Shown piece after piece: positions 13,169 through 17,947 of a stretch of 38,583 bases of DNA. The notes beneath the pieces were generated by a model. The model was not told the origin of the DNA, did no database searches, and worked only from the letters and a program-made list of their open reading frames with translations. Every line of letters starts with the position of its first letter. Positions within the stretch are counted from its first letter, which is position 1. The stretch spans positions 1-38,583 of the forward strand of contig JAPKBL010000043.1 in assembly GCA_028823415.1 (NCBI GenBank), written 5' to 3'. The translations under genes were made by a program, and so were the position numbers. The stretch is from Mariniblastus sp. GTDB taxonomy: Bacteria; Planctomycetota; Planctomycetia; Pirellulales; Pirellulaceae.

Positions 13169-16100
13169 TTAGGAGCTCGTCCACTTTTGCAATTCTTCCA
13201 TGATATTTGGATTGGCATCCGACGGCTCAAAACCAAAGTAATGCGCTTCAAGATTAGTGATCGTTGTCGCCAACTCACTTTTACGGTCGCTGCTGATTCC
13301 TTCGGAGTCGTAGATGTCCTGCAACATAGAGATAGCGGCAAACGGAGACATATCCTCAGGCAATACTGTTCGGTGTTTTTCTTGCGAATCAGGCGTCCGA
13401 CGCAAATAGCCAATAACTCCGACCAGAATAGCAAGTCCGAACGAGAGAATCCCAATCACCGCCCAGACAGTCTTTGCGGTACTTCGCTTACCATAGCTCG
13501 CATTTAGATCTACGGTCGCTTCTGCCAAAGCAAGATCCGCGTCATCGTACCTTTGAAAAATAAACTCTTCGACTTCAACTTTCGACTGAGGAAACGTGAA
13601 TTTCGTTGGTTTCTGATCAAGTCCGGGTTTTGCTTCCAGCGAGACCAGCCATGACCGATCAGAATTAATCGTCGGCTTCCGCGCCGTCGGATCAAATTGG
13701 GAAACCGAAACGCCATTGTCCTGAATTTCAGACACCTCAAAATCTGCCGGGACGATGGAAACGAGCGCGTCCAAATCAGGAACGAGTCCTTGAGCACTGG
13801 CCTTGATCTCCAAGACCAACTTCCCCTCTTCCGCTTGTCTTTCGTCGAGAATTTGAGTCACTGATACCTTCTGATTTGGCCGGGGAAATGCCGAAGAAGA
13901 CTCCACCGGAATTACCGCAGACTCCACAGGCAGAATGGCGTACCCCGAAGTGTCTAAAAAATCTAAATCTAAATGAGCCGGTGGAATCTTGTCCACTTGC
14001 GGCCCTCTGGACTTCAACAAGATGTAGGCGTAAGGCGTTACACGCCACCCGGCTTTATCACTTGGCAGCGATTGAACATCGGGCTTTTGGAATGTCACCG
14101 ACATAACCTCAAATTGCTCAGAGAAAGTCTCCCGAATCGCCTCTTCGAATTTATCGCGGTAATCATTAGTCGGCCGTCCGTAATTGTAGGAGAACGCAAC
14201 ACTGCTATTCTGGTTTTGCAGGTATCTTCCAAAGCCGCCTGATTCTCGCTCGATTTCCTTGGTGTGCACGAGGTCAACATACACACCGAACGGTTGATCA
14301 AAACCAACTCTTGCATCTCCATCAATTCGTGTTTCAAGCCGAATCTCGTTAACGAGATCCTTATAATACTCATGGACTTTGATGGCTTCGCTTGCCTGTT
14401 TGTGATCTCCAACAATCGAGAGCCCAAGGTCAAGGTACTTATGCTTGAGTTGCGGCTTGACGCTGCTCATTCGATTGAAGAGCCGATTCGCGAATTGAGC
14501 CATATGGTATTCAGCAGCAGCCTTCGGAAGTGACAAAATCGCCTCTCGAATCAGAGGAGCCTGAGTTGGATCGGTACGATTCTTGTTTTCAATTAGCCCT
14601 AAATCACATGCCCCAAGACTCGCATAAAACCACGAAGTGAAAGGCGAATATTTGAGATACTCGCTAGGCTCCATCTGCTCAACTAACTCTGCATAACGGC
14701 GGGCGGAAGTTTGAAACAATACCATCGCCTCTTTTCTTCGCGGTGAGAACTCAGCACTGTTTTTAATCCCAGCTCGATAATTGTTTTCATCGTGCAACAA
14801 CTCAGCTTGTGTTCTGATCAATTGCCAGGAATCTTGATCACGCAACATCGCATTCTCTACGAGTCGCTGAGCCAACTGATAACCATCGATGACTTCTTTT
14901 TCGATTTCTTTCTTTTTTCGTTTTGTTTTTTTGTCTTTTTGAACTTTCGCGTCTCGCCACATTCCTGCCAAATTTGTCCGCATCGAAGATGCCAACACAG
15001 CAATCGTCTCCGAATCAATATCATCGACAGATCCGAAAACCTGTTCAATTTCATCAAGCTCGTAAACTTCAGCTGTGCTATGGCAAGAAACGAATGCCTT
15101 AACGACCAACTTTTGGTCTAGTTTATTTTCGATCAATTGATTTAAACGCACGACCAACTCCGCCAACTCTTGAAGATTGCGATTCTGTTTCGAACGCGTC
15201 AGCGGAATAGATTCAGCACGACTTTCAAATCCATACATAAACATGTAACTGTTGGTCCGCCGTCGATCACTGTTGGGATTGTGATTTCGAGTCCATACCG
15301 AAATGTATTCGTTGACTAACGACTCAGCTTTTTCAGGATGGTTTTTTGCCAGTTTTTCAATGTAGGGTAAAGCTAAATCCTCTTCAGAGACTTTGAGGTA
15401 CAGTTGTGCAAGGACCGAATCGAATTTAGGACGCAACGTGGCCCCCACCATCTCCAGCCATTCCTCCGACGGTCGAATCTCGAGCAAATCCGCGGTGCCG
15501 ATTGCAGATAAACGTGTGCTTCTGGGACGGGAAACAGAGGATGCTGAATTACTATAGAAAATGTTCCCATACTGATCACGCTGCATACTCGGCCCCATGG
15601 ACGACGCATTATCGTCAGAGTAAGAAATCTCCGCTTCTCGCAGCCAATTTACCGCCAGAAGTTCGAGTAATTTTTTCCATTGCGATGCTTGCTCAGGCGA
15701 AGCAAGAAACAAAGCGCTAACGGCCTCATCCTGCAACTTCAAACGATCCAGACGAACTTGCGGGCTGCGAGGGCTCGTCTTCAGAGACATCGCCGTATCA
15801 ACCCCAATCGCTCCGAGGACTTCCATCCCCACCTCCGGTTTGGCAACGAAGCTGTCATTGAGCCACTTGTGCCCTAACTCGGTTTTCACTTGAGAGGATA
15901 ATTTAACGGCCCGCGTCAACGCTAAATTACGTTCCGTTGCGTCCACATCGTCCGCGGCAAGAATTGCCTGAGTCACACTCCAAGCGCCCTCTAAATGTTC
16001 CGTCTTCTGCTCTTTGCCGTAAAGTGCTAACTGATACTGCGAAAGTAAGTTAAGCGCTTCGTGATCATTGTTCGTCTTGGCCAAGGCGAGTTCGGGTAAA

Positions 16101-16954
16101 AACTCTCCGGCCTCTATCGACAGTCCAGCACTAAATAAGAGCTTTGCACACTGACGCTTAGTAAATACAAGCGCATTCTCTTCCAACTCCGACTTCATAC
16201 GCGCAATAAGATCTTCTGACATATTGCCCCTTAATATCGTAGCGCGAAAAGCTGCAGCAAAAAAACTCAAGTACTCATCGGGTAGACCTACTTCTTTTTT
16301 TTCGTCTGGTTTCTTTGGAACAATCGACGCAATGGCAAACAGGTCGTCAAACGTCAAGTATTGTGGTTGCAAGGCTCTGGGGTCGACCTGCGACCGAACT
16401 GCATTCCCCCCCTGAAAGGTCAACGCATTGGAATTCGAAGCCGAGGTAAGAATTTGCCGGTACACGACTTTGGCGTTTTCTAAAGGAATCTGAGTAAGAA
16501 AACCGCCGATTTGATCCCAATTACCAAGGGCAAAATCAGTTTCGAGTTGCTTCACCGCCATCTTAAATCGAGCATCGCCCGAGAGAAATGCACGCCGGGG
16601 CGCTGGAGGCATGTCCAGATTTTCATCTACCTTGGTCTCCTTATACCAAGTTTCGAGAATATTAGATGGCAATCGATTCAATTTCAGCTTTGCGAGCAGC
16701 CTTAGGCGATTCAAATTCTCGCTCTTAGATTTCTCGTCAGGATTGCTCGGTACACTCGGTGCCGGCACGCGCTCGTCCACAGGGGGCAAGACCTGCTCAA
16801 AATCAGGATCCTGCAAAGGCCTAACCTTTATCGAAGGCACCATTCGAATGGCCTTGATTGTCTGAGCCTTCAAAAACGAATTTGCCGGCAGCGCTAAGAC
16901 AAGGATCATTAAAGCGAACGCGGCGTTGCCGAGCCAAAGTTTCGTAATATGCAT
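13169..16954 (-). CDS. Very large exported, C-terminally membrane-anchored protein of unknown function
   Basis: This 1261-residue protein begins with a signal sequence (about residues 1-30, AAFALMILVLALPANSF). The long external part has helical repeat character (many L/A-rich segments such as LALTRAVKLSSQVKTELG), a lysine-rich patch (KDKKTKRKKKEIEKE) near residue 650, and a beta-rich stretch after about residue 900 (GDARVGFDQPFGVYVDLVHT). A membrane segment at about 1161-1186 (VWAVIGILSFGLAILVGVIGYL) is followed by RR and a 75-residue cytoplasmic tail. The topology is that of a large periplasmic or surface sensor or scaffold held in the inner membrane. No catalytic motif or known family was recognised. 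It lies downstream of the terminator ending the TPR gene, so it is probably transcribed separately. Confidence 0.8.
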   Translation of the reverse strand: MHITKLWLGNAAFALMILVLALPANSFLKAQTIKAIRMVPSIKVRPLQDPDFEQVLPPVDERVPAPSVPSNPDEKSKSENLNRLRLLAKLKLNRLPSNILETWYKETKVDENLDMPPAPRRAFLSGDARFKMAVKQLETDFALGNWDQIGGFLTQIPLENAKVVYRQILTSASNSNALTFQGGNAVRSQVDPRALQPQYLTFDDLFAIASIVPKKPDEKKEVGLPDEYLSFFAAAFRATILRGNMSEDLIARMKSELEENALVFTKRQCAKLLFSAGLSIEAGEFLPELALAKTNNDHEALNLLSQYQLALYGKEQKTEHLEGAWSVTQAILAADDVDATERNLALTRAVKLSSQVKTELGHKWLNDSFVAKPEVGMEVLGAIGVDTAMSLKTSPRSPQVRLDRLKLQDEAVSALFLASPEQASQWKKLLELLAVNWLREAEISYSDDNASSMGPSMQRDQYGNIFYSNSASSVSRPRSTRLSAIGTADLLEIRPSEEWLEMVGATLRPKFDSVLAQLYLKVSEEDLALPYIEKLAKNHPEKAESLVNEYISVWTRNHNPNSDRRRTNSYMFMYGFESRAESIPLTRSKQNRNLQELAELVVRLNQLIENKLDQKLVVKAFVSCHSTAEVYELDEIEQVFGSVDDIDSETIAVLASSMRTNLAGMWRDAKVQKDKKTKRKKKEIEKEVIDGYQLAQRLVENAMLRDQDSWQLIRTQAELLHDENNYRAGIKNSAEFSPRRKEAMVLFQTSARRYAELVEQMEPSEYLKYSPFTSWFYASLGACDLGLIENKNRTDPTQAPLIREAILSLPKAAAEYHMAQFANRLFNRMSSVKPQLKHKYLDLGLSIVGDHKQASEAIKVHEYYKDLVNEIRLETRIDGDARVGFDQPFGVYVDLVHTKEIERESGGFGRYLQNQNSSVAFSYNYGRPTNDYRDKFEEAIRETFSEQFEVMSVTFQKPDVQSLPSDKAGWRVTPYAYILLKSRGPQVDKIPPAHLDLDFLDTSGYAILPVESAVIPVESSSAFPRPNQKVSVTQILDERQAEEGKLVLEIKASAQGLVPDLDALVSIVPADFEVSEIQDNGVSVSQFDPTARKPTINSDRSWLVSLEAKPGLDQKPTKFTFPQSKVEVEEFIFQRYDDADLALAEATVDLNASYGKRSTAKTVWAVIGILSFGLAILVGVIGYLRRTPDSQEKHRTVLPEDMSPFAAISMLQDIYDSEGISSDRKSELATTITNLEAHYFGFEPSDANPNIMEELQKWTSS

Positions 16955-17176
16955 ATATTTTTTCGCGTAATGGCCTGATAATTCGATAGTCGATTTCCGA
17001 GCCGCGGGCAGCCCAGAATTCCGCTTATTCTAACTCAATTGCTTCGAAAAACCTAACCACTGATTGTGATTTAGCCAACATGGCATGGATTTTGACCTCT
17101 AAATTCAGACGTCTCTTCCTTTTTTGTTAGCAGATTAATTCCGCAAAGCACAACGGCTCGGTGGAAAGCAACGAGC

Positions 17177-17211
17177 AAAAAAAATACCATGCAAACCAAT
17201 GCATGGTATTT
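17177..17211 (-). terminator. Strong intrinsic terminator after the UGA-containing TPR gene
   Basis: On the minus strand AAATACCATGC and GCATGGTATTT (17201-17211 and 17182-17192) form a perfect 11-bp stem with an 8-nt loop that runs into eight T residues. It begins 31 nt after the TAA at 17243-17245 but about 142 nt after the first UGA. This fits the longer reading of the gene. Confidence 0.9.
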
Positions 17212-17242
17212 GAAATTTTGGTTTGAATCTTAAGCTAACGTA

Positions 17243-17947
17243 TTAACTTCCCGATCCATCTGCAGGAGTCCCTGCACTTGCTCCACGAGCGTCTTGTTTC
17301 TTTTTGCCAGGCTGACCAACGCGACCGCGTTTGGAAGATGAATTTCAGCCAGCTCATTGGCTTGGCAGAGGCAATCCCTGCAACTCACCAATATCCATTC
17401 GAGCCAACTTGACCGAAGATTCAAGATCTGATTTTCTTTTTAAGATACCTTCGGTCTCCAAACCATCTTCCGACTGTTCGGCAAGCAGTCGATAAATTTG
17501 CTGCGACGACGTGATCTCAGGCTCCCAAACTTCTTGCGGTCGCCCCTCCAGTCTCATCAACCATGTAATGTAGAACTGTGAATTCGCAAGAGCGATTCGA
17601 GACGCCGTCAGCGTTTGTGGATCGCTCTCGGGATCAGCCATCAACTCCTCGACGAGCATCTTGAGGTCTTCATTCGCCTGAGGCAAACCACTATTGTGGA
17701 TTTCGCATTTGGCCAGTTCAAGTCTTGTCTTTCGCTGAGTCGCCAGATCATCCTCGGGAAGCAAATCGAGCGCTTCCTTATAATTTTCAATCGCTTTGGG
17801 CCACTGCTCATCAGCGACCCAACGATCTGCCTCGACCAGTAACTGAGCCGCGCGATCGCTTTTCAAATCACCCTGCCCAGGTCCTAAATGGTAGGCGAGC
17901 GCGCCGACCGGGATTAACATCCATACAACAAACAATAGTGTTCTCAT
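17243..17947 (-). CDS. Candidate selenoprotein: membrane-anchored TPR protein with a UxxU motif
   Basis: ATG 17947 follows GAGGGA by 4 nt. The encoded protein has one N-terminal hydrophobic segment (residues 3-18), AYHLGPGQGDL, and a TPR-like helical region (about 31-130). The frame meets UGA at codon 198, reads Ala-Gly, meets UGA again at codon 201, then runs 33 codons to TAA (17243-17245). The tail reads NSSSKRGRVGQPGKKKQDAR, then GASAGTPADGSGS. This basic, Gly/Ser-rich ending resembles tails of planctomycete TPR proteins, where I would expect cysteines before it. A hairpin with a GGUC loop sits 18 nt after the second UGA. The two UGAs would thus be selenocysteines in a UxxU redox motif, giving 234 residues. 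It lies downstream of lptE and ends at a strong terminator. The alternatives are termination at codon 198 or a decayed tail. The sec genes are not in this window. Confidence 0.7.
17310..17350 (-). promoter_or_regulatory. Candidate bacterial SECIS element
   Basis: On the minus-strand RNA, GGCUGA (17350-17345), which includes the second UGA, pairs perfectly with UCAGCC (17315-17310). Inside, after a 10-nt one-sided bulge, CCAA(A)CGC pairs with GCGUUGG, leaving one bulged A and an apical GGUC loop (17326-17323). Eighteen nucleotides separate the UGA from GGUC, as in E. coli fdhF. That element likewise has a 3-bp upper stem and one bulged base below it, though there the bulge is U. The spacing to the first UGA is 27 nt. 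Confidence 0.7.

Follow-up and report, generated by a model that had tools for sequence, protein, structure and literature searches.

The gene on the minus strand at positions 17,243 to 17,947 of the Mariniblastus sp. DNA analysed here (the window, 38,583 nucleotides) encodes, with near certainty, a selenoprotein, a judgement reached by comparing sequences, with no protein or selenium measured. It follows from the exchange of UGA with cysteine codons among relatives, from a GGUC hairpin with compensatory changes and from the presence of selenocysteine (Sec) machinery. The product would be a membrane-anchored, tetratricopeptide repeat (TPR)-like protein with a flexible C-terminal tail carrying Sec198-Ala-Gly-Sec201. 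The explanation taken as a whole, that is, a tail with a Sec pair, decoding through one hairpin and a redox arm in a Bat-like system, is one that we hold with considerable confidence; that it acts in redox chemistry within a Bat-like complex is an inference. The features to which the text refers are as follows.

17243..17947, minus strand: full-length selenoprotein frame, 234 aa, with Sec198 and Sec201; stop TAA at 17243-17245; nine relatives align to residues 1-234 (one to 1-233), with both UGAs in all
17354..17356, minus strand: UGA codon 1 (Sec198); Cys or UGA at the aligned position in relatives
17345..17347, minus strand: UGA codon 2 (Sec201); present in 9/9 close relatives, Cys in UxxC/CxxC forms, Thr in UxxxU forms
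17306..17353, minus strand: SECIS-like hairpin; GGUC loop 17326-17323, stem 17331-17327/17322-17318, UGA 2 inside the lower helix of the predicted fold
17246..17344, minus strand: Gly/Lys/Ser-rich tail, probably disordered, under purifying selection; pLDDT below 50 for residues 178-234
17177..17210, minus strand: terminator-like inverted repeat with T-run, from sequence; similar repeat 3′ of the stop in the relatives L002-L008
17879..17947, minus strand: N-terminal hydrophobic segment, approximate (signal anchor or signal peptide), MRTLLFVVWMLIPVGALAYHLGP, judged by eye
17549..17881, minus strand: TPR-like helical hairpins, residues 23-133, from the predicted structure and Foldseek
13169..16954, minus strand: downstream 1261-aa protein, a frequent neighbour of the selenoprotein, without Pfam or NCBIfam family

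Reading frame, tail and predicted protein

The frame starts at 17947 and runs through the first UGA, Ala-Gly, the second UGA and 33 further codons to the TAA, at the coordinates given by a preliminary description of the window that had proposed a two-selenocysteine UxxU protein. A strong terminator had been placed 31 nt beyond the TAA in that description, and a terminator-like repeat does begin about 30 nt on, at a distance that is somewhat variable in L002-L008. Its remark that TGA is a rare stop in the window also held, as exbD alone uses it among the 24 main genes, which were hand-picked from the list of open reading frames. Searched with the full-length protein, the genome collection yielded nine loci at 65-92% identity, all of which have both TGAs, a Gln preceding the first TGA, Ala-Gly in between and the tail, in support of the UxxU reading. 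Homologues ending at the first UGA, which had been named as an outcome that would overturn the proposal, were not what we found: the tail is kept, with Cys or Sec at the positions in question.

Over 28 pairs of eight close sequences, pN/pS was 0.067 in the body of the protein, 0.130 in the tail and 0.086 in the tail from residue 213 on, low values which indicate that the tail is translated. By subtraction, codons 199-212, which hold most of the hairpin, contain just 14 of the 187 synonymous differences in the tail, indicating that the DNA of the hairpin is under a second constraint. These data bear on the reading of the locus as an ordinary gene that ends at the first UGA, followed by a chance open frame, or as a product of sequencing error. 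The folding energy of the hairpin is by itself unimpressive, as such a reading would have it, but the UGAs and the tail are common to many separate assemblies, which excludes sequencing error, and the pN/pS of 0.086 from residue 213 on is not that of a chance frame. In our reading, the comparative sequence data refute it, and we give it practically no credence.

In the predicted model (mean pLDDT 65), helices span residues 23-133, with pLDDT of 78-96 in the ten-residue blocks from 31 to 120, and confidence falls below 50 over residues 178-234. A Foldseek search of the PDB with this model returned mostly generic TPR domains, with a best E value of 6.6e-3. Pfam TPR_11 matched at E 0.0047, under its cut-off, and a Pfam and NCBIfam scan of the selenoprotein gave nothing above cut-off. 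That the N-terminus is a membrane anchor or signal, and that the tail is thereby periplasmic, is inferred. Animal thioredoxin reductase carries a C-terminal Gly-Cys-Sec-Gly arm, and the window protein resembles it in having selenium on a flexible C-terminal arm, but has no flavin or reductase domain.

Selenocysteine and cysteine forms in Planctomycetota

The spread of the gene was followed in two sets of genomes. In the family set, 54 of 199 genomes matched in a search at E 0.001 and 50 loci were read, four genomes with weak matches being left out; these loci comprised 30 Sec forms, nine Cys forms, two with neither UGA nor Cys at the motif (L050 and L052) and nine distant ones without the motif. 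In the phylum set, 71 of 392 genomes matched, many weakly, and 321 did not; two of the matches were already known, 34 were Sec forms, 10 Cys forms and three distant, and 22 weak ones were left unread. Three loci (L053, L112 and L129) were not kept among the Sec forms since their UGA is the end of the frame, and L112 was counted as a Cys form. The loci read thus give Sec forms in 64 planctomycete genomes and Cys forms in 19. Two distant relatives, L127 (DCPGGQC) and L128 (PQCDG), have Cys near the place of the motif and were excluded from the Cys count.

Two UGAs are present in 24 of the 64 Sec forms (seven UxxU, 14 UxxxU and three UxxxxxU), while 27 are UxxC forms, with Cys three residues after the UGA, 12 are CU forms, with Cys directly before it, and one has a lone UGA. 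In the UxxxU forms, the second Sec lies one residue beyond the position aligned with Sec201 of the window. The UxxU spacing of the preliminary description is therefore right for the window and its close relatives, and other geometries (UxxxU, UxxxxxU, UxxC, CU) take its place elsewhere. In 63 of the 64, a partner Sec or Cys lies no more than six residues ahead of the first Sec or seven beyond it; G316 is the sole Sec form without one, so the pair is not universal. Motifs of the Cys forms include CKGCCSGQC, CKGCKSGKC, KCKGCCNGVC and similar ones. The stop at the end of the tail is UGA in 34 of the 64 Sec forms and TAA or TAG in the other 30. UGA thus alternates with Cys at the motif and with TAA or TAG at the tail end, and appears to bear two meanings inside one gene. 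In a tree of 84 bodies, from which the partial gene L051 was omitted, Sec and Cys forms are interleaved, and the starred branches cannot be reconciled with fewer than four changes of the Cys label. Since the bootstrap values are rough and the root is a midpoint root only, no ancestral state is claimed.

Within the literature accessible to us, the family appears to be undescribed. Table 1 of a 2026 inventory (PMC13188914), which covers 119 families and subfamilies of prokaryotic selenoproteins, has no TPR family and no entry for such a protein, in agreement with the earlier remark that this is not a classical bacterial selenoprotein. A term look-up in PMC13188914, PMC12013277, PMC9312934 and PMC2398784 found no mention of planctomycetes or tetratricopeptides. 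The portion available to us of a study of planctomycete selenoproteins (PMC4807772) names formate dehydrogenase and formylmethanofuran dehydrogenase; its supplementary table of candidates might hold the family, and NCBI protein records were outside our scope. Nor is the family named in the literature on planctomycete, UxxU, multi-Sec, diselenide, TPR and MoxR selenoproteins, as far as this was accessible in part, with few subscription papers and no preprints. The nearest known proteins are bacterial double selenoproteins (Prx-like UxxU, NF041115 metal-binding UxxU, FmdB-family UxxU and TsoB UxxxxU; PMC13188914), which share two Sec residues a few positions apart. Those belong to named domain families, whereas the window protein is TPR-like and anchored, with its pair on a probably disordered tail. 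It would add to the list of selenoproteins, dominated by enzymes of the thioredoxin fold, a family from outside that fold which is found across many families of a large phylum of environmental bacteria. Annotation is liable to miss its functional tail because UGA reads as a stop.

GGUC hairpin and selenocysteine machinery

A hairpin with the layout of a bacterial SECIS had been reported after the second UGA, and we found it there, with a GGTC loop on a 5-bp stem, 18 nt past the second UGA and 27 nt past the first. It is the only GGTC flanked by at least five Watson-Crick pairs on either strand of the whole window. The SECIS of E. coli formate dehydrogenase likewise has a GGUC-type loop at a similar spacing from its UGA, the difference being that the single hairpin of the window is preceded by two UGAs, the second of which is part of its lower helix. 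A GGUC loop follows the last UGA in 52 of the 64 Sec forms, at 21 nt (38 forms), 18 nt (7), 27 nt (6) or 24 nt (1), the one with the longest stem being taken where several GGTC were present. The hairpin was found in none of the 19 Cys forms.

Support for the stem came from covariation. Of the 41 different 20-base stretches compared, 41, 41, 40, 40 and 41, respectively, form the five pairs flanking the loop, and pair types are exchanged on both sides of the stem (GC/CG and CG/TG/GC/AT), as expected for compensatory changes. With one side of the stem slid by one base as a control, the pairs form in 0-34 of 41; when the shift is two or three bases, the repetition of CGC keeps some individual pairs at 37-41 of 41. 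Under the loop, Arg-Gly-Arg is written CGC GGT CGC in 46 of 50 RGR triplets; for comparison, GGT accounts for 160 of the 406 Gly codons in the initial portion of the tails. Folding of single sequences was rejected as proof of the hairpin, being weak against shuffles, and the covariation of pairs was used in its place. The 56 nt from the first UGA folded with an MFE of −18.9 kcal/mol (z −2.1, 4/200 shuffles as good), and folding from the second UGA gave −7.1 kcal/mol (142/200 shuffles as good). A published model of the bacterial SECIS, according to the part of the source that we could consult, allows 16-37 nt from UGA to loop and sets an MFE limit of −7.5 kcal/mol (PMC13188914). Both window UGAs are within this range of distances, and the energy is below the limit from the first UGA and above it from the second.

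Other Sec forms depart from this arrangement. L115-L126, which are 12 Sec forms of one other family with Cys-Sec in GCUQGSGLLGS, lack the GGUC hairpin, and two of them, when folded, gave a hairpin with a GUU loop that was no better than shuffles. The UxxxxxU forms L100-L102 (USGNGTU) have a CCCC-GGUC-GGGG stem, with the first UGA 39 nt from the loop, just beyond the published range.

We infer that SelB and Sec-tRNA would use the single hairpin of the window for both UGAs. Sharing of one obvious hairpin by two UGAs 9 nt apart could also mean that read-through is limited to the first UGA, or to a fraction of ribosomes, so that most chains end at residue 197 or residue 200 and the complete protein is made in minor amounts that depend on selenium; Sec insertion in vivo has an efficiency of 30-40% according to the accessible part of PMC4513850. 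Against such an outcome, the tail past both UGAs is under constraint at the protein level, and other relatives have Cys at the second position, which argues that the doubly decoded form matters to fitness. Partial read-through of this kind remains possible, and we consider it unlikely.

The machinery needed for selenocysteine was then located in the genome of the window. SelB is present in full, at 368.9 bits against a cut-off of 242, and a tRNA-Sec scores above its model cut-off and is called SeC, anticodon TCA, by ARAGORN; among 14 control genomes, five also gave a match to the Rfam tRNA-Sec model that reached its cut-off. SelD was found as well. A search for selA, selB, selC and selD had been proposed at the outset, with the absence of selB and selC as a ground for rejection; both are there, together with selD, and only selA is missing, with nothing for SelA over cut-off in this draft of 92.7% completeness. 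As 11 of the 13 genomes of the genus have SelA over cut-off, all except G119 and that of the window (G000), its absence here is likely an assembly gap, which has not been shown. G000 and G119 have SelB without a SelA match over cut-off, and in the remaining 11 genomes of the genus SelB and SelA occur together. In three genomes of the same genus (G067, G168 and G182), SelB and SelA are present and no homologue of the selenoprotein was found at E 0.001. The SelD match of the window genome (L077; G000:C226:213-1115) lies within a 740-aa open frame, and SelD may be fused to another domain.

Across the phylum, SelB (judged by TIGR00475 for the family set and by PF09107 for the phylum set) was found in 60 of 64 genomes with Sec forms versus 9 of 19 with Cys forms (Fisher p = 2e-5, uncorrected for kinship), and the four Sec-form genomes without a SelB match are drafts of 78-90% completeness. 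Reading of UGA as Trp, Arg or Cys by a suppressor or near-cognate tRNA, without selenium, would leave the tail coding just as well and would be at ease with the missing SelA. It does not account for the exchange with Cys, the restriction of the hairpin to UGA forms, the co-occurrence with SelB or the presence of tRNA-Sec, nor for the fact that UGA also stops exbD and 34 of the 64 tails, and we consider it very improbable.

Gene neighbourhood and possible function

Among loci with enough flanking sequence, a ~1300-aa homologue of the 1261-aa protein is encoded downstream at 46 of 60 Sec loci and at all 19 Cys loci, and the gene immediately upstream encodes a VWA protein at 43 of 62 Sec loci and 18 of 19 Cys loci; the remaining 19 of 62 Sec loci have no VWA gene upstream. 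All five relatives examined in full have the order MoxR-DUF58-~290 aa-VWA-VWA-selenoprotein gene-~1300 aa, with the Pfam domain names taken from one of the five. In the window genome, MoxR-DUF58-~290 aa-VWA-VWA stands on another contig (L110:3272-8141) without the TPR-like and ~1300-aa genes, which are at 13169-17947 of the window, indicating that in this clade the selenoprotein gene is separated from the Bat-like operon. The outer-membrane assembly context of the preliminary description holds for the window, whose neighbours RecO, YfiO-like and LptE recur at the close relatives L002 and L009, and not elsewhere: no RecO, YfiO or LptE match was present at the other six of the eight loci compared. 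Away from close relatives, the gene is mostly accompanied by MoxR, DUF58, two VWA proteins and the ~1300-aa protein. With only these two loci, both close relatives, LptE, YfiO and RecO were set aside as a clue to function.

The cluster resembles the Bat (Bacteroides aerotolerance) operon in its MoxR, DUF58 and two BatA/BatB-like VWA proteins followed by a TPR-like protein, and differs in lacking a BatD match, in the ~1300-aa protein of no family and in the Sec/Cys tail. A place as the operon's BatC/BatE-like TPR protein would fit the gene order of the five relatives and does not fit the window locus itself, and the TPR matches that it would call for are weak. The first VWA protein matched the BatA model best (E 8e-22, below its cut-off), and no NCBIfam Bat model reached its cut-off in the operon proteins. 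No Pfam or NCBIfam match to BatD was found in the ~290-aa or ~1300-aa neighbours scanned. The second VWA protein and the MoxR protein also matched chelatase models, far below cut-off.

These weak chelatase matches bear on the main rival to a redox role, in which the gene still encodes a selenoprotein and the Sec/Cys cluster serves as a ligand for a metal or metalloid. Some MoxR-VWA systems assist in metal insertion, and the Cys forms are rich in Cys (CKGCCSGQC, KCKGCCNGVC). Against this, the spacing varies from UxxU through UxxxU, UxxxxxU and UxxC to CU, one form has a lone Sec, and the tail is probably disordered, all of which fit more easily with a redox pair. Metal binding is thus a reading that we doubt without dismissing it.

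Under the redox reading that we prefer, the two selenols would form a reversible Se-Se pair on a mobile periplasmic arm, with Se-S or S-S pairs in relatives, and the arm may pass electrons to or from the MoxR-DUF58-BatA/BatB-like partners as part of a function in oxygen or oxidant tolerance; all of these steps are inferred. The parts of PMC3557215 open to us describe the function of Bat as elusive, the genes as named for aerotolerance in Bacteroides, and the proposed activity as the reduction of periplasmic proteins or the export of reducing power, and report that an oxidative-stress phenotype was absent in bat mutants of Leptospira. In planctomycete anammox genomes, BatA and BatD were counted among the genes for oxygen tolerance and protection, to judge from the accessible text of PMC8862662.

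A broader proposal is that this is a planctomycete Sec family in which one hairpin serves UGAs 9-18 nt apart and a diselenol arm supplies Bat/MoxR-VWA systems with their missing redox centre. We advance it tentatively, as an idea that may well fail. If true, the arm would give chemical substance to the old idea that Bat supplies the periplasm with reducing power. A selenol/thiol pair beside MoxR, DUF58 and BatA/BatB-like genes provides a testable handle on Bat, and the interchange of Sec, Cys and spacing is a natural experiment on the benefit of a second selenium and on the way SelB copes with UGAs so near each other. As a minor observation on the tails themselves, Gly-Ser stands directly before the stop in at least 60 of the 64 Sec forms.
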